Virus record (IMG/VR): IMGVR_UViG_3300021364_000111
Coordinates: 1-30,969 of that record
From: a virus
Length of the DNA: 30,969 nt
Direction: 5' to 3' (one strand)
The position numbers and the translations under genes were made by a program. Each line of letters opens with the position of its first letter. The first letter of the stretch is position 1. Below are positions 5,341-30,685 of this stretch, in pieces. The notes beneath the pieces are model-generated. The model made no database searches, had not been told where the DNA came from, and saw only the letters and a program-made list of their open reading frames with translations.

Positions 5341-5726
5341 TGGCTAATTTTCAAGATATAAAAGCACAAACAGGTATAAAGTTTTTTAAATCGTCCGGCA
5401 CAGGTACGGATGCAGATCCGTTTGTACCTGAAGTTTCTGGAATAACAACCGCAGATGAAGTAACTAGTATTACTAATTTTAATGTATCAGTAGGGTCTAG
5501 CAGTACGCAGGTTTTAGCCGCTAACAGTAGCAGAAAATTACTAATATTAGTTAATGACGATGATGAAGATATTTATATAGCATTAGGAGCAACCGCCACA
5601 TTAAATAGTGGAATTAGATTAAATAAAAAAGGTGGCTCCTTAACACTTGATGACCCAAAATACACAGGCGTTGTAAATGCAATTTGTTTAAGTGGTAGTA
5701 AAAATCTAGTGGGTATTGAAGCATGA
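5341..5726 (+). CDS. small beta-sandwich virion protein
   Basis: 128 residues starting at the ATG at 5341 (MANFQDIKAQTG). A GTG at 5307 would open the same frame, but it lies inside the hairpin and adds an unlikely leader. The middle (NFNVSVGSSSTQVLAANSSRKLLILVND to IALGATATLNSGIRL) resembles the small all-beta domains found in phage tail or head accessory proteins, of the kind that presents a scaled measurement-like sandwich. I do not recognise a named family. Its stop overlaps the start of the giant fibre gene (ATGA), so the two are probably made together and this protein may connect the fibre to the particle. Confidence 0.62.
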
Positions 5727-8700
5727 CACAAATATATAATCCTGATGGCGGTATAGAAAGCATTATAGAAGATACTACACCACAACTGGGTGGTAATTTA
5801 GACTTAAACAATAACGATATAACTGGTACTGGTAACATTGATATTGCTGGTGAAATAACAGCCACAACGCTGATTGGTAACATGCGAGGGGCAACCATAT
5901 TCCAAGCAAAAGCAGGTGAAGCCTTAACTAAAGGTGATCCAGTCTATATATCAGGTGATGATCTTGTAGGTAACAAGCCTATTGTTTCTATTGCCGATTC
6001 AGACGACGCAAATAAAATGCCTTGTTTTGGATTGGCAGCAGAAACAGTTAGCTCAAATGCAAATGTTAATGTAGTTACATTTGGAACGATTAGTGGATTA
6101 GATACATCATCCTTTAATCAGGGCGATATTTTGTATATAAGTACAACTGGAACATTATCAGCCACTAAACCTAGTGGGGAATCATCACTTATCCAAAATA
6201 TTGGCAAAGTTATGAGAAGTCATGCAAGTGTAGGATCAATTAAAGTCGGTGGTGCAGGACGTACCAATGATGTTCCTAATTTGGACGACGGAAATGTATT
6301 TATTGGCAATGCTTCAAATCAGGCTGAAACTAGAGGGTTAACACTTGATGATGTCTCAGAAACAGTAGATAAAAAAATATTTACAGCTACGGAACAAACA
6401 AAGTTATCAGGTATTGAAAACAATGCTACAGCAGACCAAACAGCAAGTGAAATAAAAACAGCTTATGAGTCTAATGCAGATACTAACGCATTTACAGATT
6501 CAGAAAAAACAAAACTCGCAGGGATAGCAACAGGTGCAGAAGTCAATGTAAATGCTGACTGGAACGCTGTTAGTGGGGATGCACAAATATTTAATAAACC
6601 AACTGATATTACAGATTTAAGCACACATAATGTTACTGAATTAGCTGATGTTACGAGTGCTGGTTCAGGAGCAATTATTACTAGTTCTGAACGTACAAAG
6701 CTTACTGGCATAGCAGCAGGCGCAGAAGTTAACGTGCAATCTGATTGGAATGAAACTGACACAGGAGCGGATTCTTTTATACAAAATAAGCCCACAACAA
6801 TAACTAGCGCAGAACAAACTAAGCTTGGCCATATAACTGTTACACAAGCAGTCGATTTAGACACAATGGAGTCAGATATAGCGACCAATAATTCTAAAGT
6901 TAGTAACGCAACTCACACAGGTGACGTTACAGGATCAGGGGCACTAACAATATCAACAAATGTTGTTGATAATACCAATTTATCGCAAATTGCTACAGGT
7001 ACAGTTAAGGGACGCACTACAGCAGGAACAGGAAATGTTGAAGATTTAGACATTGATACAACTTTCAAAACTGCATTAAACCTTGCTAAATCTGATGTAG
7101 GCTTATCAAATGTTGATAATACATCCGATGCAAACAAGCCAGTTTCAACAGCAACACAAACAGCACTAGACGCAAAAAAAGATACTTTTACTGAGAATAC
7201 GGCATTTAATAAAAACTTTGGGACTACAGCAGGAACAGTAGCACAAGGTAACGATTCAAGAATTACAGACTCTTTTCAAAAAAGTACAGACACATTAGAT
7301 AACATAACAACTGGCACAACAAACGTACATTTTACTACAACTGACGAAAGCAAGTTAGACGGAATTGCGTCTGGTGCCGAAGTAAATGTAAATGCCGATT
7401 GGAATGAAACTGACACAAATTCAGATGCATTTATTTTAAATAAGCCTACAACTATAACGAGTGCACAACAAACTAAACTAGGGCACATATCAGTTACACA
7501 AGCAGTTGACTTGGATACAATGGAATCTGACATTACGACTAACAATGCAAAAGTCACTAATGCAACTCACACGGGTGACGTTACAGGATCACAAGCACTA
7601 ACAATAGCAAATGAGGCTATTACTAATGCAAAATTAAGTCATATCGCTACATCGAAAGTAAAAGGTAGAACCTCTACAGGTACAGGTGATGTTGAAGATT
7701 TAGACATTGAAACAACTTTAAAAACCGCATTAAATTTAAGCAACACAGATGTTGGTTTGGGAAATGTGGCCAACGTGGATACTACTAATGCAAGTAATAT
7801 TAGCAGTGGCACTCTCAATGCAAGTAGGCTTCCAAGTAATATTGACGCAACTAAAATTGCTAATGGCACAATATCAAATACAGAGTTTCAATACTTAAAT
7901 GGCGTTACTAGTAACATTCAAACACAAATAGATAATGCAGGTGGAGGTATATCTAGTGTTGAAGATGATACAAGCCCAGTTTTAGGTGGAAATTTAGATG
8001 CTAACGACAAAAAAATAGAAGCAGTAGATTTATTAAATTTTACAAATTCACCAACTGCATCATTAACCAATATTGCAGATATTAATTATAACTCTACTTA
8101 TGACACCTTGGAGCTAAAAAACGATACGGGTGAAATTCTAGTAGGTCAAACTAATGAGATTTATGTAACGAATGGTACAGGTGGTGCTTTCTCAGCTTAT
8201 CAAGCAGTGTATAAAAGTTCAGTAAGCTCAGGTAAAATCGCAGTTGGTTATATGATTGCTGATGGAACTATTGATGCCACAAATTATTTAGGTATAACTA
8301 CAGAATTTATTGCAAAAGCTGGAGACGGAAAAGTTATAACTTTTGGTCGACTTGATGGAATAAATACAAGCAGTTATTCTGCAGGTGATATTCTATATGT
8401 AAGCTCTTCTAGCTATGGAGGCTTTACCTCAACTAAACCGTCAGGAAGTAATCTTGCAATTGCAACAGGCATTGTATTAACCAGTAGTAGTTCAGGTTCG
8501 ATTTGGGTCAATGCCAATAATATAGATTTGAATGTAAGTGGGTCAGGCGATACTAATGTACAATCAAATTGGACTGAAACTGATACTAATTCAGATGCAT
8601 TTATTTTGAACAAACCAACATTAGCATCTTCAGCAACTATTGACACCACCAATGCAAGCAATATCTCAAGTGGTACTCTTGCCGAAGCAAGATTACCAAG

Positions 8701-10774
8701 TAATATTGATGCAACTAAAATTGCAAATGGAACTATTACAAACACTGAATTTCAGACATTAAATGGTGTTTCAAGCGATATTCAAACACAGTTAAACGGA
8801 AAATTAACAGCTCTAGAAGATGATACAAACCCTTATTTAGGTGGGAACTTAAATTGTGACGGTAATGAAATAATAAATCCGGCAATGATTGACTGGGATA
8901 CTAATAACCCTAGCCCTATTGGTGCTTTAGGTGAAATGTCATATGACACCACTTATGACACATTAAGACTATATAATGACACTGGAAAAATTCATTATAT
9001 AGGGCAAAATCAAGATGTCGTTTTAAATTCTAGTACAGCGGTTACAGTAGGCCAATGTGTTTCTTTAAATGGAGTAACAGTATCAGGCATCGCGCAATAT
9101 GAAAAGTTTATTGCTGATGGTACTAAAAATGCAAAAGATTTTGTTGGGTTAGCCATTACTACTATAGGGTCTGGCAACGGAAAAATTCTAAGATATGGAT
9201 ATTTGAGTGGTGTTAATACAAGCTCTTTTTCAGTAGGTGATAAATTATATCCTTCTACTACTTCAGCAGGTAATTTAACAAATACACAACCAACAGGTTC
9301 AAATGTTGCTTTATGTGTTGCAACGGTTGTTACAAGTGCAACTAGTGGTACTATACTTGTACACGCCAATAATATAGACTTAAATGTAAGTGGTGGTGGG
9401 GAAACTAACGTACAATCTAATTGGAATGAGACAGATACAAATTCAGATGCATTTATCTTAAATAAGCCTACAACTATAACGAGCGCAGAGCAGACAAAGC
9501 TGTCAAATATAACAGTAAGTCAGGCGGTAGACCTTGACACGATGGAGTCAGATATAGCAACTAATAACGCAAAAGTTACAAATGCAACTCACACAGGTGA
9601 TGTTACTGGTAGTACTTCTTTAACTATTGCTGATGAAGCGGTAACAAATGCAAAGATGGCGCATATTGCAACAGGAACAGTTAAAGGAAGGACAACCGCT
9701 GGTACAGGTGATGTTGAGGACATTGATATTGATACAACACTTAAAACAGCATTAAATTTAGACAAAAGCGATGTAGGATTAGGAAATGTGGCCAACGTGG
9801 ATACTACCAATGCAAGTAACATTGCAAGTGGAACCTTGGCAGAAGCAAGATTGCCAAATAATATAGATGCAACCAAAATTGCGGATGGGACAATTACAAA
9901 TACAGAGTTTCAACGACTTAACGGGGTCACTGACAATATCCAATCACAAATTAACACAAAACAAGACACAATAACTGGAACAACTGATATAACATTGAAT
10001 CAACTTACAACAAATTCGAATATTATTGTAAAAGAAGATGAGGATATGTCAATAATATTAGGTAGATGCAGATTAGACGCACGTTTTTCTGATACCTGGA
10101 ATTTCAGCCATTATGACTTATCGGGACAACAACAATATCAATTTAGTGGTAATACGGACACTGTATTTTTAAATGGCCCGACTTATGTAAGATTGCAGTC
10201 TGCTGGAAACACTATCGCAAGTGTTATCAGTGATGGAATTGAATTTGAATCAGGAAATCGATACTACATGAAAAACAATGCGAATCTTTTTCATGCCCTT
10301 AACGATAACACTCAAACCCCAGGTGCTACACCAACTGTATATTATCCACTTTTTGCAAATAATGCAGTTACTAACACAGATATTTATTCTTATAGTAATC
10401 CGTCCTCTTCAAATAATACAGGGATTCGATTGTTGAAGGCAGGAAAATATAAGGTTTCATACACACTAAATTGGCTAAATGCGAGTTATAATAGCAGAAT
10501 TAATTTTTACACTCGCTTGGTAAAACACTCAAGCGCAATAACACCAACTGAAACAGAATTTCCAGGCACAAGAAGTTTTGCTTATGCGCGAGATGACAAT
10601 TTTGCGAAATACGCAACCACAACATGCGTAACTGTCATTGATGTTTCCGCTAATGAATACATTAAATGTAAAACCCAAATAGCAAAAAATGATAGTAGTT
10701 TTAACGACAATTTTAGTGGCGTTCAATTTCACCAAAATAGCTCAATAGTTGTCGAGTATTTAGGTGATATTTAA
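5723..10774 (+). CDS. giant repeat-built tail fibre / receptor-binding protein
   Basis: A 1683-residue fibre, the largest protein here. The N-terminus is short and mirrors the later joints (an EDDTSPVLGGNLDANDKKI-type joint recurs near 770 and 1065, matching TTPQLGGNLDLNNNDI near residue 20). Three copies of a beta module with GDxVYIS, GxxxGxDTSS and AGDILY elements lie at about 59-175, 816-938 and 1096-1220. Between them are collagen-like Asn/Thr/Asp-rich shaft repeats such as NADWNETDTNSDAFILNKP, VTNATHTGDVTGS and VGLGNVANVDTTNASN. The last 150 residues (YPLFANNAV to VVEYLGDI) look like a trimeric C1q/TNF-type jelly roll, a likely receptor head. Several shaft repeats are nearly identical in DNA. 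Known relatives are trimeric fibres; trimerisation here is inference. Confidence 0.85.
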   Translation: MTQIYNPDGGIESIIEDTTPQLGGNLDLNNNDITGTGNIDIAGEITATTLIGNMRGATIFQAKAGEALTKGDPVYISGDDLVGNKPIVSIADSDDANKMPCFGLAAETVSSNANVNVVTFGTISGLDTSSFNQGDILYISTTGTLSATKPSGESSLIQNIGKVMRSHASVGSIKVGGAGRTNDVPNLDDGNVFIGNASNQAETRGLTLDDVSETVDKKIFTATEQTKLSGIENNATADQTASEIKTAYESNADTNAFTDSEKTKLAGIATGAEVNVNADWNAVSGDAQIFNKPTDITDLSTHNVTELADVTSAGSGAIITSSERTKLTGIAAGAEVNVQSDWNETDTGADSFIQNKPTTITSAEQTKLGHITVTQAVDLDTMESDIATNNSKVSNATHTGDVTGSGALTISTNVVDNTNLSQIATGTVKGRTTAGTGNVEDLDIDTTFKTALNLAKSDVGLSNVDNTSDANKPVSTATQTALDAKKDTFTENTAFNKNFGTTAGTVAQGNDSRITDSFQKSTDTLDNITTGTTNVHFTTTDESKLDGIASGAEVNVNADWNETDTNSDAFILNKPTTITSAQQTKLGHISVTQAVDLDTMESDITTNNAKVTNATHTGDVTGSQALTIANEAITNAKLSHIATSKVKGRTSTGTGDVEDLDIETTLKTALNLSNTDVGLGNVANVDTTNASNISSGTLNASRLPSNIDATKIANGTISNTEFQYLNGVTSNIQTQIDNAGGGISSVEDDTSPVLGGNLDANDKKIEAVDLLNFTNSPTASLTNIADINYNSTYDTLELKNDTGEILVGQTNEIYVTNGTGGAFSAYQAVYKSSVSSGKIAVGYMIADGTIDATNYLGITTEFIAKAGDGKVITFGRLDGINTSSYSAGDILYVSSSSYGGFTSTKPSGSNLAIATGIVLTSSSSGSIWVNANNIDLNVSGSGDTNVQSNWTETDTNSDAFILNKPTLASSATIDTTNASNISSGTLAEARLPSNIDATKIANGTITNTEFQTLNGVSSDIQTQLNGKLTALEDDTNPYLGGNLNCDGNEIINPAMIDWDTNNPSPIGALGEMSYDTTYDTLRLYNDTGKIHYIGQNQDVVLNSSTAVTVGQCVSLNGVTVSGIAQYEKFIADGTKNAKDFVGLAITTIGSGNGKILRYGYLSGVNTSSFSVGDKLYPSTTSAGNLTNTQPTGSNVALCVATVVTSATSGTILVHANNIDLNVSGGGETNVQSNWNETDTNSDAFILNKPTTITSAEQTKLSNITVSQAVDLDTMESDIATNNAKVTNATHTGDVTGSTSLTIADEAVTNAKMAHIATGTVKGRTTAGTGDVEDIDIDTTLKTALNLDKSDVGLGNVANVDTTNASNIASGTLAEARLPNNIDATKIADGTITNTEFQRLNGVTDNIQSQINTKQDTITGTTDITLNQLTTNSNIIVKEDEDMSIILGRCRLDARFSDTWNFSHYDLSGQQQYQFSGNTDTVFLNGPTYVRLQSAGNTIASVISDGIEFESGNRYYMKNNANLFHALNDNTQTPGATPTVYYPLFANNAVTNTDIYSYSNPSSSNNTGIRLLKAGKYKVSYTLNWLNASYNSRINFYTRLVKHSSAITPTETEFPGTRSFAYARDDNFAKYATTTCVTVIDVSANEYIKCKTQIAKNDSSFNDNFSGVQFHQNSSIVVEYLGDI
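7760..7785 (+). repeat. 26-base direct repeat inside the fibre gene (copy 1)
   Basis: An identical 26-base copy lies at 9782-9807 in the same reading frame (codons for GNVANVDTT). Recombination between the copies would delete about 2 kb of shaft in frame. Confidence 0.85.
9782..9807 (+). repeat. 26-base direct repeat inside the fibre gene (copy 2)
   Basis: Partner of 7760-7785, base for base. Flanking sequence is also similar at the protein level but has drifted at third positions. Confidence 0.85.
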
Positions 10775-19994: not shown

Positions 19995-20756
19995 TTAAAA
20001 TGGCGTAAAATCATCAACATTTATTTTCCCATTGCCCTCGACTAAGGCTTTTTGCATGTCTTCTTTTAGCAGGCGCTGATTAAATTCTGTAGCTGTTTCG
20101 TATTTTGGCTTGCTAGTTTTATCGTCTTTTAATAGCCAGCTACGCAGTGCTTTATAGTGTGATTTGTATTTGCGTGGATGGTCTTCTAGGTAGCTATCTA
20201 GCTGCATTATCTGTGTTTGCACTGTCTGTGCGTTGTAGTCAGTAATTAGCTTGTCATATTCTTTTTGCTCAAGTTGGACATTGTCACAGTCTGTTATGCC
20301 AACAAGACTTAAATTTATAAAAGTTTTTTTTGTATTTATATTTTTTTTATATTCACTATTTATAGTATTAATACTACTTGTATTATTATACTGGTCATTT
20401 TTTACTATACCCCTATCGTAATTTTTTACTATACCCCTATCGTAATTTTTTACTATAGGTATAGTAATTTTTGACACTAGATAAAGCTTGCGTTCAATTA
20501 TTACATTGCTGTCATCTTTAATTAGTACACTTTCTAAAAATTCGTGCTTAACAAGATTGCTAACGGCTTTAGTGATACTACTAACAGATTTATTAAAAAC
20601 TTTTGCAAAGTATTTGTTTGAGGCATTACAGTAACCATTCTTATTAGTTAGCGATGCTATGTCGCTGTACAGTAGTTTCTCAAAGCAAGAAAGATCTTTG
20701 CTGTATCTAACATCTGCGGTAATTATGCTGTAGTAATTGGGATTTTCTTTAGTCAT
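19995..20756 (-). CDS. lambda-O-like replication initiator with winged helix
   Basis: 253 residues. Residues 10-95 form a winged HTH of the phage replisome-organiser type (YSIITADVRYSKDLSCFEKLLYSDI, then NASNKYFAKVFNKSVSSITKAVSNL as the recognition helices). Residues 101-120 contain the tandem peptide IVKNYDRG twice, encoded by DNA repeats that look like origin iterons. A flexible Asn/Ser linker and a C-terminal helical domain (QTQIMQLDSYLEDH, KSHYKALRSWLLKD) follow, the latter probably contacting the loader. It would bind its own internal iterons and melt the AT-rich DNA next to them. It is coupled to the annealing protein gene by ATGA. Confidence 0.8.
   Translation of the reverse strand: MTKENPNYYSIITADVRYSKDLSCFEKLLYSDIASLTNKNGYCNASNKYFAKVFNKSVSSITKAVSNLVKHEFLESVLIKDDSNVIIERKLYLVSKITIPIVKNYDRGIVKNYDRGIVKNDQYNNTSSINTINSEYKKNINTKKTFINLSLVGITDCDNVQLEQKEYDKLITDYNAQTVQTQIMQLDSYLEDHPRKYKSHYKALRSWLLKDDKTSKPKYETATEFNQRLLKEDMQKALVEGNGKINVDDFTPF
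20330..20467 (-). other. candidate replication origin: iterons plus AT-rich stretch
   Basis: Two perfect 24-base direct repeats at 20398-20421 and 20422-20445 share the core ACTATACCCCTATCGTAA. A third, divergent copy (20446-20467) contains the inverted repeat TTACTATA-GG-TATAGTAA. On the coding strand these are followed by about 70 bases of nearly pure A/T (20330-20397). Iterons then an AT-rich unwinding region inside the initiator gene is the lambda O arrangement, in the same order. Confidence 0.68.
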
Positions 20757-22186: not shown

Positions 22187-22363
22187 TCAGATATCTTCTA
22201 CGCCATAATTTCTTAAGAGCGTTGCATATTGGCGAGTAGGTATTCTTTTCTTCGTACTCCAATTGTAAAAAGTCATATCCGATATATACGCATTTAATTT
22301 TCTCATGCTAATGTTGTTCATTGCAATTTTATGAATCGGGTCATTGATTTCTGATATTTTCAT
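22187..22363 (-). CDS. Cro-like HTH regulator
   Basis: 58 residues: MKISEINDPIHKIAMN, then an HTH-like region at 18-45 (SMRKLNAYISDMTFYNWSTK followed by RIPTRQYATLL). Length and layout fit a small Cro/YdaS-type DNA-binding protein of the early switch. A strong GAAGGAG site lies upstream, and a good promoter (TTGCGT, 17 bases, TATAAT) overlaps the end of the previous gene. The likely targets are the tandem TTATATAAC repeats in its own promoter or the palindrome at 23437-23451. Both points are inference. Confidence 0.62.
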   Translation of the reverse strand: MKISEINDPIHKIAMNNISMRKLNAYISDMTFYNWSTKKRIPTRQYATLLRNYGVEDI

Positions 22364-22389
22364 TTTTACTCCTTCAAGATACTTTATAT

Positions 22390-22418
22390 ATTATATAACC
22401 TTATATAACTTTACGCAA
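22390..22418 (-). promoter_or_regulatory. promoter of the Cro-like gene with tandem 9-base repeats
   Basis: On minus, TTGCGT (22418-22413), a 17-base spacer and a perfect TATAAT (22395-22390). The spacer contains the tandem repeat TTATATAAC at 22391-22399 and 22401-22409, spaced ten bases apart, about one helical turn, as expected for an operator. Confidence 0.55.
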
Positions 22419-22629
22419 CAAAAATATCAATAAAAAATAAAATTAATGCAAAAACATACCCGCCTATAATAATTATAATTAGAGGCCAGTAGCTAGTTGT
22501 CGTATTTAAGGTGCTGTTGTAGTTTTTCAAATATTTATTTGTCTCTTCGATTTTTTTTTGAATTTCTAATATTGTGTTGTCTAATTCGTCAATTGAAGTA
22601 TATTTTTTTTTATTATTTTCAGGTTTCAT
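22411..22629 (-). CDS. coiled-coil membrane peptide paired with the LRR protein
   Basis: 72 residues. Residues 12-40 form a charged coiled-coil (SIDELDNTILEIQKKIEETN). Residues 48-72 are one strongly hydrophobic helix (PLIIIIIGGYVFALILFFI) at the very C-terminus, so it would be tail-anchored with its N-terminus in the cytoplasm. The start overlaps the stop of the LRR gene as ATGA, so the two are made together and may form a membrane-bound complex. It could be holin-like, but it sits in the regulator region far from the endolysin. Confidence 0.65.
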   Translation of the reverse strand: MKPENNKKKYTSIDELDNTILEIQKKIEETNKYLKNYNSTLNTTTSYWPLIIIIIGGYVFALILFFIDIFVA

Positions 22630-23084
22630 TTTTTCTTTTTCTTTCTTAATTTTCTGTTTCTTTGCAACAAAATTTCAATTTTTAGCAATAAATTATTGCT
22701 GATTTTGTTATTATCAAAATACAATTGTTCTAAGGTCGTGTTGTGTTTAAGCGATTCTATTATTTTTTTAGCCCCAATGTTAGTAATTTGATTGCGATCT
22801 AAATCTATAACTTTTATAGTTTTATTATGTTCAAGTGCATAAGCAATAGAAGGTGCAGCTTTATCACAAATAATATTGTTATCTAAGTCAATATAGTCTA
22901 CTTTATTATTTTTAATTAACGCCTTAAACATAAAAATAGCATCACAAGAATTAATGCCATAACTACTTAACCTTAGATCTTTCAATTCAGGATTGTTTTG
23001 TTTAACTTTGTTATAATCAATAATAAAAAGTTTACTATCTGTAAGCATTAGTTCACTATCAGTGTTTTTGTTTTGGGGGTCCAT
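22626..23084 (-). CDS. leucine-rich-repeat protein (ribonuclease-inhibitor type)
   Basis: 152 residues made of four repeats of exactly 28 residues at 35-62, 63-90, 91-118 and 119-146, each of the form xxIDLxxNxIxxxxAxxIxxALxxNxTI. This is the RI-like LRR class known mainly from eukaryotes and from bacteria that live with them; the curved solenoid binds proteins. No secretion signal or catalytic domain is attached. The C-terminus is RKLRKKKKK. The gene is next to the switch region, where accessory genes expressed from a prophage usually sit, and is coupled to a membrane peptide. A function in exclusion of other phages or host interaction is possible but not shown. Confidence 0.78.
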   Translation of the reverse strand: MDPQNKNTDSELMLTDSKLFIIDYNKVKQNNPELKDLRLSSYGINSCDAIFMFKALIKNNKVDYIDLDNNIICDKAAPSIAYALEHNKTIKVIDLDRNQITNIGAKKIIESLKHNTTLEQLYFDNNKISNNLLLKIEILLQRNRKLRKKKKK

Positions 23085-23148
23085 TTTTTTTCCTTTTTTA
23101 TGTTATAATTTTATTTGAAACATGCTTAACAGTTATAGTTTCCTAAAC

Positions 23149-23174
23149 GGCCCACAATTTGTGGGTCATTTTTT
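23149..23174 (+). terminator. intrinsic terminator-like hairpin
   Basis: GGCCCACA and TGTGGGTC form an eight-pair stem with a three-base loop, followed by CATTTTTT on the plus strand. It lies between the small membrane peptide gene and the LRR gene, both on minus, so it would stop plus transcription. On minus it lacks a T-run. Confidence 0.55.
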
Positions 23175-23178
23175 AAAC

Positions 23179-23283
23179 TCATTCCACGATTATAAACATA
23201 ATTATTAAGGCGTTAATCATTATTAAATTAAATAATATAAATAAATAGGCTTGGTTTTTATTTTCTGTAATTGAATTTTTCAT
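23179..23283 (-). CDS. 34-residue hydrophobic membrane peptide
   Basis: It starts MKNSITENKNQAYLFILF, followed by a hydrophobic stretch rich in Ile, Leu, Met and Asn, and ends FIIVE. One transmembrane helix covers about residues 12-33. A clean AAAGGAG site nine bases upstream supports real translation. It follows the 37-residue gene, whose stop lies four bases before this start region. No family is recognised. Confidence 0.5.
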   Translation of the reverse strand: MKNSITENKNQAYLFILFNLIMINALIIMFIIVE

Positions 23284-23287
23284 TTTT

Positions 23288-23401
23288 TTAAACTCCTTTT
23301 TTTCTCACAAAAGTTATAATACCTTGTTTGATTTCGTGTATCTCATACACCTGTTCGCTTTTGTCTATTATCTCTGTATATATTGTGGTTGCTTGTTTCA
23401 T
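23288..23401 (-). CDS. 37-residue first gene of the minus control operon
   Basis: This encodes MKQATTIYTEIIDKSEQVYE, then IHEIKQGIITFVRKKGV. It looks like a small beta-hairpin domain, not recognised. AAGGAG lies seven bases before the ATG, and the promoter at 23432-23460 is directly upstream, so this is the first gene read from the repressible minus promoter. A regulator such as an anti-repressor is possible by position only. Confidence 0.52.
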   Translation of the reverse strand: MKQATTIYTEIIDKSEQVYEIHEIKQGIITFVRKKGV

Positions 23402-23431
23402 TTTTTTCTCCTTTTTTTTAAGCATGAATAT

Positions 23432-23460
23432 ATAATACGATTAATAATCGTGTAAATCAA
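23432..23460 (-). promoter_or_regulatory. main minus early promoter with embedded perfect palindrome
   Basis: On minus, TTGATT (23460-23455), a 17-base spacer and TATTAT (23437-23432). The perfect palindrome ACGATTA-A-TAATCGT (23437-23451) fills the spacer, so a bound dimer would block the polymerase. It drives the 37-residue gene and probably the whole leftward set. Confidence 0.68.
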
Positions 23461-23472
23461 GTATATATATAT

Positions 23473-23485
23473 TGAAATAATTTCA
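23473..23485. promoter_or_regulatory. second palindromic operator candidate
   Basis: TGAAAT-A-ATTTCA is a perfect 13-base palindrome. It lies between the minus promoter and the plus HTH gene, 36 bases from the first palindrome. Both have the same central A. Related half-sites are not obvious, so two different regulators may act here. Confidence 0.45.
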
Positions 23486-23497
23486 TACATACGAATA

Positions 23498-23528
23498 TTG
23501 CACGCATTATAATTATATGTAATAATAT
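23498..23528 (+). promoter_or_regulatory. promoter candidate for the plus HTH gene
   Basis: TTGCAC (23498-23503) can pair with TAATAA (23520-23525, 16-base spacer) or TAATAT (23523-23528). Either start point would put the first transcribed base within a few bases of the ATG at 23536, and there is no Shine-Dalgarno, so the message would be nearly leaderless. Confidence 0.42.
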
Positions 23529-23535
23529 AGATGCA

Positions 23536-23700
23536 ATGAAAAAATATGAACACAACATTGATCTGTATAAAAGACTAAGAAACAAAAATATGAGTTGGCG
23601 TGAAATCGCTAAACACTTAGATATTCCAGAGAGTACTTTGTTTGAGTTTATCAAAAGAAATTACGTCGAAGTAATTTTATACGATTATATAAAGAAGTAA
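23536..23700 (+). CDS. 54-residue HTH protein, divergent repressor candidate
   Basis: This encodes MKKYEHNIDLYKRLRNKN, then MSWREIAKHLDIPESTLFEF, a clear HTH at about 19-41 of the resolvase/homeodomain-like type. It is divergent from the minus early operon, with two palindromes between them, the classic place for a switch repressor. It is shorter than CI-type repressors and has no dimerisation or cleavage domain, so it would act more like Arc or Cro. An in-frame ATG five bases upstream is closed at once by TGA. No Shine-Dalgarno is present. Confidence 0.6.
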   Translation: MKKYEHNIDLYKRLRNKNMSWREIAKHLDIPESTLFEFIKRNYVEVILYDYIKK

Positions 23701-27404: not shown

Positions 27405-27533
27405 ATGCCACTAGACTATGGAAAATCTAAAAAAGCTTTTGAAAAAAATATTAAAACAGAACTACAGGCAGGAAAACCAATAAAGCAGGCATTAGCTATT
27501 GCTTACTCTATAAAGAAAGGAAAGAAAAAATGA
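27405..27533 (+). CDS. 42-residue basic phage protein (MPLxxGKSKKAxxxNIKTEL type)
   Basis: The product starts MPLDYGKSKKAFEKNIKTEL, then GKPIKQALAIAYSIKKGKKK. This is a recurring tiny phage protein with a Lys-rich N-terminus and an amphipathic AIAYS helix. The very strong AAGGAGGAG ribosome site and the ATGA overlap with the next gene support it. The role is unknown. It often lies near packaging or lysis genes. Confidence 0.72.
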   Translation: MPLDYGKSKKAFEKNIKTELQAGKPIKQALAIAYSIKKGKKK

Positions 27534-27718
27534 ATTTAAATAATATTGCAGGGATTGTTATTGATCGTGTGTTTAATCAAGGCAAAAAAAAATCAATTGA
27601 AGCAACTGGTATATTGGTATTAATACTAAGTCATTGGTTACCAGAAGAAATAGCGAAAAACATTATAACTGGTCTTGGTGGTTTGTGGGCTGCTTACAAG
27701 CTATATGATAAAGACTAA
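27530..27718 (+). CDS. holin-like small membrane protein
   Basis: 62 residues. Residues 23-36 (IEATGILVLILSHW) and 44-58 (NIITGLGGLWAAYKLY) are moderately hydrophobic helices separated by a polar turn (LPEEIAK). This two-helix layout is seen in short holins. Two genes later comes the M15 endolysin, which needs a holin because it has no signal peptide. The start overlaps the previous stop. Without experimental or database support the assignment is tentative. Confidence 0.55.
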   Translation: MNLNNIAGIVIDRVFNQGKKKSIEATGILVLILSHWLPEEIAKNIITGLGGLWAAYKLYDKD

Positions 27719-27893
27719 AATAGACGACTTAGAATACTATGATTTAAGAAATATTAAAATTTGCTATGTAAGCCCATTAAATGGCAGCTATGACTTTTAC
27801 GCAAAGTCGGAAGATATATTAGACGAAGCAATAATAGAATTCGAAAATGGTAATCTAATTAGTTTAGATATGATATTCTTAAATGTGAACTAA
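27705..27893 (+). CDS. small protein before the endolysin
   Basis: 62 residues from the ATG at 27705 (MIKTKIDDLEYYDLRNI). A TTG at 27675 would add ten residues but lies deep inside the holin-like gene without a ribosome site. The product is acidic (DILDEAIIEFENG) and probably a small alpha/beta fold. It is not recognised. It overlaps the previous gene by 14 bases and the endolysin start by one (TAATG), so it belongs to the lysis unit. Confidence 0.58.
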   Translation: MIKTKIDDLEYYDLRNIKICYVSPLNGSYDFYAKSEDILDEAIIEFENGNLISLDMIFLNVN

Positions 27894-28312
27894 TGGAAAA
27901 CATAACAAAAAATTTTATACTGCCCGAATTTATTGCTAAAGAGACATGGGATAAATATGGCCATAGAGCACTATGGCAAATAGATAGCCGTATAATAGAA
28001 ACATGTCAAAAGCTAAGAGATAACTTAGGTATTCCGCTTACAATAAACAACTGGTACTACGGTGGGGATAGGCATGAGTCAGGATTACGTGTTGAGGGTA
28101 TGAAAAACTATAGCCCTACAAGTCAACATGCTTCAGGTCGAGCTGTTGATATTATTAGTAAAGATATGTCGGCTGAGGAGATGAGGCAGCATATATTTGA
28201 CAACAAGTATGAGTATCCCTACATAAAAGCAATTGAGCGTAATGTTTCGTGGTTACACATAGATTGCAGACATACAAATAGCAATAACTTTATGCTTTTT
28301 GACCCAAAATAA
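27893..28312 (+). CDS. M15-family peptidase endolysin
   Basis: 139 residues of the zinc D-Ala-D-Ala/L-Ala-D-Glu peptidase M15 type, which cuts peptidoglycan cross-links. Motifs: SQHASGRAVDI at 77-87 with His79 and Asp86, and ERNVSWLHID at 115-124 with Glu115 as base, His122 as metal ligand and Asp124. The N-terminus FILPEFIAKETWDKYG and WQIDSRIIETCQKLRDNLG match the phage small M15 proteins (Peptidase_M15_3). There is no signal sequence, so a holin is needed. It is the last gene before a hairpin and the non-coding region. Confidence 0.87.
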   Translation: MENITKNFILPEFIAKETWDKYGHRALWQIDSRIIETCQKLRDNLGIPLTINNWYYGGDRHESGLRVEGMKNYSPTSQHASGRAVDIISKDMSAEEMRQHIFDNKYEYPYIKAIERNVSWLHIDCRHTNSNNFMLFDPK

Positions 28313-28529: not shown

Positions 28530-28578
28530 TTATTATTACAAATATTAAGCAGTTATTAATTAATAGCTGTAATAATAA
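28530..28578. repeat. 11-base perfect inverted repeat at the end of the secreted-protein gene
   Basis: TTATTATTACA (28530-28540) and TGTAATAATAA (28568-28578) enclose 27 bases that include the stop codon of the minus gene. No T-run follows on either strand, so this may be a stabilising 3' structure rather than a terminator. Confidence 0.55.
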
Positions 28579-28796
28579 CCGCTACTTTTATCGTTTTTAT
28601 ATTTATTTGTACCCTTTTTACCTGTATAAGGATTTGTATTTCCTTTGTAAGAGTAATTATCTCTAACAGTTCCGTTAGAATCAGACCTATAATAGCCATT
28701 AACATAAGTGCCGTCAGCTCTGTAATAGCCATTAACGTATGTAGAAGCATAAGTTAAAGATGTTACTGTTAACAAAAGAATAAGTAAAATTTTCAT
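28560..28796 (-). CDS. secreted small protein with YVNGYYR repeats
   Basis: 78 residues. Residues 1-17 are a signal peptide (MKILLILLLTVTSLTYA). The mature part has two 11-residue repeats, TYVNGYYRADG at 19-29 and TYVNGYYRSDS at 30-40, then DNYSYKGNTNPYTGKKGTNK. This pattern is widespread in small exported proteins of proteobacteria, of unknown role. AAGGA lies eight bases before the ATG, and GTATAC palindromes lie further upstream. The gene is alone on minus and set between direct repeats, so it looks like an added cargo gene (moron) acquired from a host. Confidence 0.75.
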   Translation of the reverse strand: MKILLILLLTVTSLTYASTYVNGYYRADGTYVNGYYRSDSNGTVRDNYSYKGNTNPYTGKKGTNKYKNDKSSGYYYSY

Positions 28797-29015
28797 AGTG
28801 TGAATCCTTTTTTTTATATTTTATAAAATAAAGTATACACCGTATTAACTATATTTTATACAACTTTAAGTATACTTATCGTTTTGCTAAACTCGGCAAT
28901 ACGTTTAAAACTGGATTATTTTACAAAAATTTAGTAATTTGACATGAATTTATACTAATGCTTATAATCTTTTTTATTTTTTACAATACCATAACTATTT
29001 AGTTTTAATTTGTTT
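28797..29015. other. non-coding stretch with GTATAC sites upstream of the secreted-protein gene
   Basis: No supported gene. ATTTTA-TAAAAT is a perfect palindrome near 28819-28830. GTATAC occurs at 28833-28838 and again inside the perfect palindrome AAGTATACTT at 28868-28877, about 36 bases apart, possible operators for the minus cargo gene. The rest is AT-rich. Confidence 0.4.
28963..28989 (+). repeat. 27-base direct repeat, right copy
   Basis: TATAATC then TTTTTTATTTTTTACAATAC. Same orientation as 28501-28527, with 26 of 27 bases equal, 462 bases apart. Confidence 0.75.
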
Positions 29016-29086
29016 GCCGCCACAGAACCCAATTAAAAAAACAATTCAGAACATGTATATGTTATAAAGAAAAAAATTGTGGCGGC
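29016..29086. repeat. stem-loop 1 of the non-coding array
   Basis: GCCGCCACA (29016-29024) and TGTGGCGGC (29078-29086) are a perfect nine-base inverted repeat. They are unusually GC-rich in this AT-rich genome and enclose a 53-base A-rich loop. No T-run follows on either strand. Confidence 0.6.
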
Positions 29087-29114
29087 TATTCTTTAATTAT
29101 AGCTACTTTCTTGC

Positions 29115-29158
29115 AATTTTCATTTTACCAAATTGTAACAACAGTTATAATGAAAATT
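29115..29158. repeat. stem-loop 2 of the non-coding array
   Basis: AATTTTCATT (29115-29124) and AATGAAAATT (29149-29158), ten perfect pairs around a 24-base loop that can itself pair through TTAC/GTAA. Confidence 0.5.
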
Positions 29159-29171
29159 CCTTCGTAAATTA

Positions 29172-29200
29172 GGGTTAGTAAATACATTTAATGCTAACCC
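29172..29200 (+). terminator. stem-loop 3, terminator-like
   Basis: GGGTTAG (29172-29178) and CTAACCC (29194-29200), followed by GTTTTTATAATT on plus. The T-run suits an intrinsic terminator for a plus transcript entering from the left. Confidence 0.6.
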
Positions 29201-29258
29201 GTTTTTATAATTGTAGTTTAACTAATTTACTTTTATAATTATGTTTAAAGCATATTTG

Positions 29259-29298
29259 AGGGCAATGTTTTTTCCTGTTTCATTTATATCATTGCCCT
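29259..29298 (+). terminator. stem-loop 4, terminator-like
   Basis: AGGGCAATG (29259-29267) and CATTGCCCT (29290-29298), nine perfect pairs with a T-rich 22-base loop, followed by TTACTTTG. It may act as a second plus terminator or as part of a structured RNA. Confidence 0.55.
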
Positions 29299-29414
29299 TT
29301 ACTTTGTTAGTTTTATAATTTATTATTTTAATAATGATAAAACCCATTAGCCATCACATCATCTGATATCACACGTTGTGAATAGTAGGATAGATGTCTT
29401 AAGTAGATCATTTT

Positions 29415-29459
29415 TCCTACTGGCTTATCAAGTCAGTAAACTAATCAAAGCCAGTAGGA
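29415..29459. repeat. stem-loop 5 of the non-coding array
   Basis: TCCTACTGGCTT (29415-29426) and AAGCCAGTAGGA (29448-29459), twelve perfect pairs. A third segment AGTAGGA at 29384-29390 could pair with the left arm instead. It is followed by A-rich sequence, so it is not an intrinsic terminator. Confidence 0.6.
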
Positions 29460-29519
29460 GTTTCAAAAAAATAATTAAACAATTAATCAATATAATTGTT
29501 AATGGCAAAAAAACATTTT

Positions 29520-29613
29520 CGTGACTCCAAGAATATGATAAGTGCTTGAGAGGTACTTACCAAACTTATATTAATAAGTGATTCACAGGTACTTATTAAT
29601 AAAAGGAGTCACG
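29520..29613 (+). ncRNA. three-way-junction structured element (ncRNA candidate)
   Basis: An outer stem CGTGACTCC (29520-29528) with GGAGTCACG (29605-29613) encloses two hairpins. Hairpin a is TAAGT/ACTTA at 29539-29559, extendable with wobble pairs to a three-base loop. Hairpin b is TATTAATAAGT/ACTTATTAATA at 29569-29601. The hairpins are a duplicated 20-base unit, AAGTGNTTNANAGGTACTTA, 36 bases apart. Junction lengths are 10, 9 and 3 bases. No gene is seen here. Strand is assigned from the neighbouring plus recombinase unit and could be wrong. Confidence 0.45.
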
Positions 29614-29672
29614 ATATTCATTACTGCAATTAAATATTAATTTTTTGTTTACATGTATCAATGTTTTTTGCG

Positions 29673-29843
29673 TTCTCATAAATTATAACTTTTAATAAAT
29701 AACAGAGAAAATACATATATATTTTTTTTATACGTAAATATCATTCTCATAAGCCATTATCATAAGTACATTCTCATAAGCCATAAAAAAGTGCCATTTA
29801 TGATAATAGAAGTTACAAAATACAAAAAAAGGCTTATCATAAA
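29673..29843 (+). promoter_or_regulatory. array of TTMTCATAAR motifs before the recombinase unit
   Basis: Copies at 29673 (nine of ten bases), 29744, 29757, 29771, 29797 (inverted) and 29834. The 16-base block CATTCTCATAAGCCAT occurs exactly twice, at 29742-29757 and 29769-29784. Steps between copies are 13, 14, 26 and 37 bases. They sit directly before the two-gene recombinase unit, as resolvase res subsites or autoregulatory operators would. Confidence 0.6.
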
Positions 29844-29861
29844 GGTAAGGAGTGATTGCAT

Positions 29862-30140
29862 ATGATAAAAATAATTTCCAACCTTGTTCCGGGTAAGGAT
29901 ACTGATTACATGGAACATAAAGAATTTGAAAATGAAATAAACAGGTACATTTACGAAAACCCTGGTTATGAATTAAGCGATATAAAAATAATAGGGGAGG
30001 AGTTAGTAGGTATTTTAGTTAAAGAAAAAAAACAATACCATGTTGGAAACATAAAGCAGCCGCAAGCTAGATATAATCATGTGAGTGAACTTATAAATAA
30101 AATGGAGTCTTTTATTTTAGATTTAAAGGAGAGTTTATGA
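29862..30140 (+). CDS. small protein coupled to the serine recombinase
   Basis: 92 residues from the ATG at 29862 (MIKIISNLVPGKDTDYM). A TTG at 29856 opens two codons earlier but is only four bases from the AAGGAG site, whereas the ATG has ten. The fold looks alpha/beta: EFENEINRYIYENPGYEL then DIKIIGEELVGILVKEKK, with a C-terminal helix ELINKMESFILDLKESL. I do not recognise it. ATGA coupling to the recombinase gene suggests an accessory or regulatory partner, perhaps acting on the motif array upstream. Confidence 0.65.
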   Translation: MIKIISNLVPGKDTDYMEHKEFENEINRYIYENPGYELSDIKIIGEELVGILVKEKKQYHVGNIKQPQARYNHVSELINKMESFILDLKESL

Positions 30141-30685
30141 TTTTAGGTTATGCCAGAGTGTCTACTACTGGACAAAGTTTAGACGGACAAAAAGAAGATT
30201 TATTAAAAAATGGGGCACAATATATTTACCAGGAAAAAAAATCAGGTAAAAATTTATCACGAGAAGCATTGCAGGACTGTTTAGAAAACTTGCGAGAACA
30301 CGATACATTGATGGTAACAAAGCTAGATCGGCTAGGGCGAAATACAAAAGATGCGCTGAATATATTAGATTACTTAAAACAAAATAAAGTTAATCTAAAA
30401 ATTTTAGATACAGGCATTGATACAAATACGCCAATGGGAAAATTTTTTTATCAATTGCAGGCTATGTTTTCAGAGCTTGAACGTAATTATATTTTAGAAA
30501 GAACCGCAAAAGGACGAGAAAAGGCAAAGCGTGAAGGCAAATTAACAGGTCGACCACTGAAAATAAGTAACGAAAGAGTAAAGCTTGTTATGCAAGACAT
30601 TGAAAGTGGTATTGATATACGTGAGGCATGCTCTTTTAGAGGTGTTTCAGTACCTACATTTTATAGACGTATGAAAAAGTTATAA
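30137..30685 (+). CDS. small serine recombinase (resolvase/invertase family)
   Basis: 182 residues, the full length of Tn3-resolvase/Gin-type enzymes. Catalytic domain: YARVSTTGQ at 5-13 with nucleophile Ser9 and Arg7; KLDRLGRN at 62-69 with Arg65 and Arg68; then the PMGKFFYQLQAMFSELERNY block and long E helix at about 100-135. TGRP at 137-140 links to the HTH (about 146-180: IREACSFRGVSVPTFYRRMK). It would cut and rejoin DNA at paired sites, giving inversion or resolution; it is too small to be a large serine integrase. It ends one base from the convergent, reversed portal segment. Confidence 0.9.
   Translation: MILGYARVSTTGQSLDGQKEDLLKNGAQYIYQEKKSGKNLSREALQDCLENLREHDTLMVTKLDRLGRNTKDALNILDYLKQNKVNLKILDTGIDTNTPMGKFFYQLQAMFSELERNYILERTAKGREKAKREGKLTGRPLKISNERVKLVMQDIESGIDIREACSFRGVSVPTFYRRMKKL

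Follow-up and report, generated by a model that had tools for sequence, protein, structure and literature searches.

A ribonuclease-inhibitor-type LRR gene and a membrane peptide gene occupy a variable cargo slot near the head of a phage replication operon

We analyzed one entire IMG/VR virus record (the window; 30,969 nucleotides, 34% GC), which represents a small aquatic phage. Recognizable genes in the window encode a P22-like portal, a major head protein, tail fibers, terminase subunits, and an endolysin, in addition to a DnaD-like replication initiator, a ParB-like protein, and a small serine recombinase. The lysis genes, a holin-like ORF and the endolysin gene, form a separate rightward cassette (Table 1). 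Searches of the window against Rfam and for tRNAs returned no matches, and the roughly 1 kb that separates the recombinase from the lysis cassette, where no gene is evident, likewise had no Rfam match. Three further features of the window are recorded here in their own right. The only PHROG hit of a 1,683-aa ORF in the structural region was marginal (E = 0.002), and the family concerned has no known function. A 78-aa secreted-looking protein (TYVNGYYRADGTYVNGYYRSD...) resembles hypothetical proteins encoded by plasmids of Xanthomonas and Burkholderia. The DnaD-like initiator gene contains a tandem 24-bp repeat (encoding KNYDRGIV repeats) that varies among relatives and possibly represents replication origin iterons.

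From a divergent promoter region, the leftward operon carries in order a 45-aa ORF, a 34-aa micro-ORF, an LRR gene, a gene for a membrane peptide, and a 58-aa gene, beyond which it runs through recombination and replication genes to a resolvase-like endonuclease. This gene order indicates that the cargo genes head the early replication operon; the preliminary description had placed them beside the switch, where prophage-expressed cargo usually lies. We compared the locus with those of a sister phage, represented by three IMG/VR contigs (L003, L004, and L005), and of the close relative L019, whose terminase is 99% identical to that of the window over its 341 residues and whose recombination-type and ParB-like proteins are 91% and 86% identical, respectively. 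The divergent promoter region is conserved among the window, L005, and L019. A palindrome, ACGATTAATAATCGT, lies inside the leftward promoter-like site and is conserved in L005 and imperfect in L019. Because promoter-like motifs occur across the region at a frequency expected by chance, the promoter call rests on this conservation and on the palindrome. Two terminator-like sites were found, versus 0.4 expected. Hairpins of different sequence lie at the same place in L005 and L019, just upstream of the cargo, and these two share the stem AGCCCTA/TAGGGCT. The 58-aa gene that closes the slot looks HTH-like by eye and had no family match.

Table 1. Features of the window and of related phage records. 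Coordinates refer to the window unless a record is named.
Feature	Coordinates	Strand	Description
HTH protein	23536-23700	+	54 aa; divergent; followed by ParB-like gene and terminase genes
Divergent promoter region	23427-23535
Leftward promoter-like site	23427-23460	-	TTGATT-17-TATTAT and TTTACA-18-TATATT
Palindrome	23437-23451
First leftward-operon ORF	23288-23425	-	45 aa; start region and ORF at matching position in L005 and L019
Variable cargo slot, whole	22364-23287	-	Repeat proteins and small membrane-anchored proteins in relatives
Micro-ORF	23179-23283	-	34 aa; Shine-Dalgarno ahead; nearly all one hydrophobic segment
Terminator-like hairpin	23149-23167	+	GC-rich stem, then T run; between micro-ORF and LRR gene
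LRR gene	22626-23084	-	152 aa; four RI-type LRRs at residues 34-145
ATGA overlap	22626-22629		LRR and membrane peptide genes
Membrane peptide	22411-22629	-	72 aa; charged, coiled-coil-like N-terminal half; one C-terminal transmembrane helix
Slot-closing gene	22187-22363	-	58 aa; 97% identical in L005, 52% in L019
1,683-aa ORF	5723-10774	+	Structural region
Tandem 24-bp repeat	20397-20472		Within DnaD-like initiator gene
Holin-like ORF	27530-27718		Lysis cassette
Endolysin	27893-28312		Lysis cassette
78-aa secreted-looking protein	28560-28796	-
Stretch without evident gene	28800-29850
Small serine recombinase	30137-30685
Hairpins upstream of cargo	L005:8024-8050, L019:2239-2267
N-terminally membrane-anchored family	L015:2487-2831, L029:581-925, L031:5832-6197, L114:1550-1921, L030:2047-2415
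DUF4116 arrays	L031:6194-6556, L113:269-874, L114:812-1549, L131:1245-2803		120-295 aa; sometimes two in tandem
GNSKVxAxDNSxV repeat proteins	L104:106-531, L018:5404-5835, L015:2038-2490

The preliminary description had proposed a regular array of 28-residue ribonuclease-inhibitor (RI)-type LRRs, and the sequence, profile, and fold all agree with it. The four units are each exactly 28 aa (LKDLRL.., VDYIDL.., IKVIDL.., and LEQLYF..). At an offset of 28, the protein matches itself with a score of +47, compared with -39 ± 13 (maximum, 17) for 2,000 shuffled sequences, from each of which the best offset within 15 to 45 was taken. The score with the Pfam LRR_6 model was 20.9 bits, under the curated cutoff of 23.4, which is a threshold for detection and describes no structural property; single-repeat models are weak on short arrays, and we therefore base the family assignment on the profile and the fold. 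A two-sequence profile built from the window protein and its sister homolog matches RI-like LRR chains in the PDB (E = 2e-24), and the AlphaFold2 model consists of four strand-helix units at a pLDDT of ~90 (~82 to 95 across residues 31 to 150) that superpose on LRR structures at Z scores of 12 to 17. The protein thus has the features of RI-type LRRs, namely, tandem 28- to 29-aa units of the form LxxLxLxxNxI.. plus a helix, arranged in the AlphaFold2 model as a strand-helix horseshoe. Among the structures superposed, DRC5 and tropomodulin scored at a Z of ~16; we attribute the likeness to tropomodulin/leiomodin to common LRR architecture and do not claim a role involving actin. The viral proteins that matched the model structurally are nearly all LRR proteins of giant viruses, which we take as similarity of fold only. 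Outside the repeats, the hydrophilic N terminus (residues 1 to 19) was modeled with low confidence and the C-terminal tail is basic; no signal peptide or Sec signal was seen on the protein. The structural genes lie elsewhere, on the plus strand, whereas the LRR gene belongs to the early operon on the minus strand; this location argues against the LRR protein being a virion component.

The gene downstream had been described as encoding a tail-anchored peptide, a topology borne out by its single strong C-terminal hydrophobic segment. The hydrophobic micro-ORF lies directly upstream of the LRR gene.

Relatives of the LRR protein are few among phages. No relative was detected by tblastn against 50,697 phage records or by searching IMG/VR with the single sequence; a search of IMG/VR with two LRR sequences recovered the sister phage on its three contigs and nothing else, and a plasmid search gave one weak match, a Megaera plasmid. 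The LRR protein is 76% identical to its L003/L004/L005 homolog (dN/dS, 0.26) and the membrane peptide is 58% identical to its L005 homolog (dN/dS, 0.32), indicating that both are real proteins under purifying selection. Neighboring genes (those for terL, the ParB-like protein, the DnaD-like initiator, two small ORFs, and the HTH protein) compared with the same sister phage gave dN/dS values of 0.03 to 0.13. By this sequence comparison, the LRR and peptide genes appear to diverge in the manner of accessory or host-interaction genes, not of core machinery. Divergent sites of the LRR protein were not significantly concentrated on one face of the solenoid (permutation P = 0.08 to 0.15, with position choice allowed for).

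The window belongs to a group of small-genome phages that encode a portal, a terminase, a DnaD-like initiator, and an endolysin, and whose slot, judged by its gene content, carries variable accessory genes. Terminases of the more distant members are 68 to 86% identical to that of the window, and identity drops to ~21% in the next relatives. In each of these more distant members, a different stretch separates the recombination gene from the ParB-like gene. Pentapeptide-repeat proteins occupy the slot in L015, L029, L113, and L039/L130 (with E values of 1e-26 and 2e-33 among the matches), and DUF4116 arrays occupy it in L031, L113, and L114/L131 (E = 2.7e-39, 5e-94, and 6e-126). Ankyrin is represented by a 39-aa ORF only, in L032 and L109 (E = 4e-7), and a J-domain protein is found in L104/L112 (E = 1e-6); in L010, L013, L019, L020, and L030, the slot holds no recognized repeat. 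Counted over whole records, 13 of the 20 records from the group contain a match to an LRR, DUF4116, pentapeptide, or ankyrin family, versus 1 of 10 distant ones (Fisher P = 0.007); when the weakest match is left out, the group count is 12 of 20 (P = 0.017). These P values are indicative only, because the fragmentary records differ in length and are not phylogenetically independent, and because the families were picked after some of the slots had been seen. The DUF4116 protein has two relatives among 50,697 phage genomes.

A membrane-anchored neighbor lies beside the repeat protein in the window, L005, L015, L029, L031, and L114/L131. An N-terminally membrane-anchored family of ~115 to 123 aa, with no Pfam match, adjoins pentapeptide or DUF4116 proteins; its gene overlaps that of the repeat protein by 4 nt in L015, L029, and L031, and L030 carries a family member without a repeat protein. 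Two other observations concern related phages: further DUF4116 genes directly follow the terminase gene in L011, L016, L104, and L108, and proteins with a short GNSKVxAxDNSxV repeat, which lack a Pfam match and perhaps form a beta-solenoid, are encoded in the same operon of L104, L018, and L015.

We tentatively favor the view that the repeat-solenoid proteins carried as cargo in this variable early slot bind host proteins, in the service of host takeover or anti-defense. Under this model, the LRR protein would be made early in infection as a soluble cytoplasmic solenoid and would bind one protein of the host or of a competing phage, blocking or sequestering it. The membrane peptide would be a separate, fast-diverging inner-membrane factor that might tether the binder or act alone, and phages would swap the repeat scaffold because hosts present different targets. 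We count in favor of this reading the position at the head of the operon beside the divergent promoter region, the faster divergence, the presence or absence of the genes in close relatives, the other repeat families found in the slot and their frequency in group records, the membrane-anchored neighbors, and the lack of a visible signal peptide on the LRR protein; we count against it that repeat folds are generic binders which fit other roles equally well, that the slot holds nothing recognizable in some members, and that LRR divergence shows no significant concentration on one face. Neither slot protein of the window matches a known anti-defense family. Searching both against PADLOC gave no match at an E value of 0.1; PADLOC covers defense and not counter-defense systems, and this absence therefore says little about an anti-defense role. 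It is conceivable, though in our estimation unlikely, that a phage genus maintains this locus as an early "binder slot" and exchanges entire repeat scaffolds (LRR, pentapeptide, DUF4116, and ankyrin) there by horizontal transfer while often keeping the position of a membrane-anchored partner, making up a modular recognition-plus-membrane system.

The cargo might instead be directed at a eukaryote: a protist would harbor the bacterial host inside it or on its surface, and the repeat proteins supplied by the phage would alter how the bacterium copes with that protist. RI-type LRRs, ankyrins, and similar repeats are common in eukaryote-associated bacteria, and the nearest cellular matches found for the LRR protein (~33 to 43% identity at best) are mostly from Rickettsiaceae, Jidaibacter, Midichloriaceae, Odyssella, and Legionellaceae, bacteria of eukaryotic cells; one Rickettsiaceae metagenome-assembled genome contains 68 matching stretches. 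Precedents exist in ankyphages and phage WO (PMC7064744, PMC9203015). However, the query included the Megaera sequence, which biases the matches toward Rickettsiales; no terminase relative was detected among 217 Rickettsiales genomes, nor did two terminase peptide patterns find a relative across 84,980 genomes. DUF4116 is rare in Rickettsiales (5 of 105) and is present elsewhere in unrelated bacteria of many phyla. Given these host searches and the spread of DUF4116, we regard a Rickettsiales host as a lead only. Since the LRR protein also lacks a visible Sec signal and an early replication operon would be an odd location for such cargo, we consider a eukaryotic target improbable.

Less probable still is superinfection exclusion, in which the peptide would keep competing phages from entering or assembling, with specificity lent by the LRR protein. 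A small, fast-diverging membrane protein close to divergent promoters would suit this role, as would the pairing of repeat proteins with adjoining membrane-anchored proteins in several members; however, either partner is often missing in relatives.

The same separability bears on the proposal that the two genes form an obligate sensor-executor system, in which the LRR protein would sense a ligand and release or activate the peptide, as an abortive defense-like or toxin-antitoxin-like pair. The genes are adjacent and overlap by ATGA, and both are kept in the sole LRR-bearing sister phage, at the same position in all three of its contigs. The overlap noted in the preliminary description is real, but it carries little weight as evidence for a pair because such overlaps are common in this genome: 21 of 39 same-strand neighbor pairs overlap, 8 of them by exactly 4 nt. 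Both genes are retained only in the window and L003 to L005. L019 encodes a peptide homolog (31% identical) directly upstream of the 58-aa gene, with a gap of just a few tens of bases to a 37-aa ORF, and has no LRR gene; in the wider group, repeat proteins occur without an adjoining membrane peptide and membrane peptides occur without a repeat protein. The two genes thus occur separately, contrary to an obligate two-gene system, and with no PADLOC match for either protein, we judge a sensor-executor function quite unlikely. The accompanying statement that phages are not known to carry such an LRR-membrane peptide pair was borne out across the phage records and IMG/VR contigs searched, among which the sister phage was the sole match. 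Finally, the peptide weakly matches phrog_1193 (E = 7e-4), annotated "hemolysin" and presumably an XhlA-type family, and has a matching topology, but a role as an XhlA-like lysis accessory with the LRR protein as an unrelated passenger is very improbable, given no Pfam XhlA match at an E value of 0.1 and lysis genes that sit in their own rightward cassette.

Phage repeat proteins are scarce and have been studied mostly as ankyrins directed at animal hosts. Small, variable, nonhomologous genes head the early operon in phage takeover and anti-defense loci such as T7 0.3, and the slot described here resembles such loci in its small variable genes at the operon head; we know of no T7 0.3-type locus for which repeat-solenoid proteins recurring in one slot have been described as a hallmark. 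Salmonella SspH1 and GogB are prophage-borne effectors with bacterial LPX-type LRRs and are exported by type III secretion. The window likewise has a phage-carried LRR; unlike in those effectors, neither LPX-type repeats nor type III export is visible. The RI-type LRRs of intracellular bacteria (Rickettsiales and Legionellales) share the 28-residue LRR_6-type unit and its motif with the window protein. They form chromosomal or plasmid multigene families and are often longer, whereas the window LRR is encoded by a phage gene, is 152 aa long, and has a conserved N-terminal extension.

Ankyrin repeat proteins are carried as phage cargo by sponge ankyphages and by Wolbachia phage WO, in its eukaryotic association module (PMC7064744, PMC9203015), and one phage WO ankyrin protein has a membrane helix at its C terminus (PMC9203015). 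The window resembles these phages in having a eukaryotic-type repeat protein as accessory cargo and differs in that its repeat is a short RI-type LRR encoded in an early replication operon, and in that its phage group alternates several unrelated repeat folds in one slot. We rejected an ankyphage-like secreted ankyrin protein as an identity for the window protein, which is an LRR protein with a hydrophilic N terminus and no visible signal peptide. An LRR ORF that varies between close phages has been proposed in the Vibrio mediterranei phage P. lipares (PMC10945359). That ORF lies in the tail module and was assigned with 10% HHpred probability (PMC10945359), whereas the window LRR has a clear fold and is an early gene. 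Our literature search for a phage RI-type LRR returned nothing, and in the literature searched we did not find a description of a small phage that carries an unambiguous RI-type LRR within a slot alternating several unrelated repeat folds.

A phage group that swaps unrelated folds in an early slot would offer a ready set of natural binders whose targets could be isolated and compared. If those targets are bacterial defense or takeover proteins, the slot would represent a new kind of counter-defense locus; if they are eukaryotic, the ankyphage idea would extend to aquatic protist symbionts.
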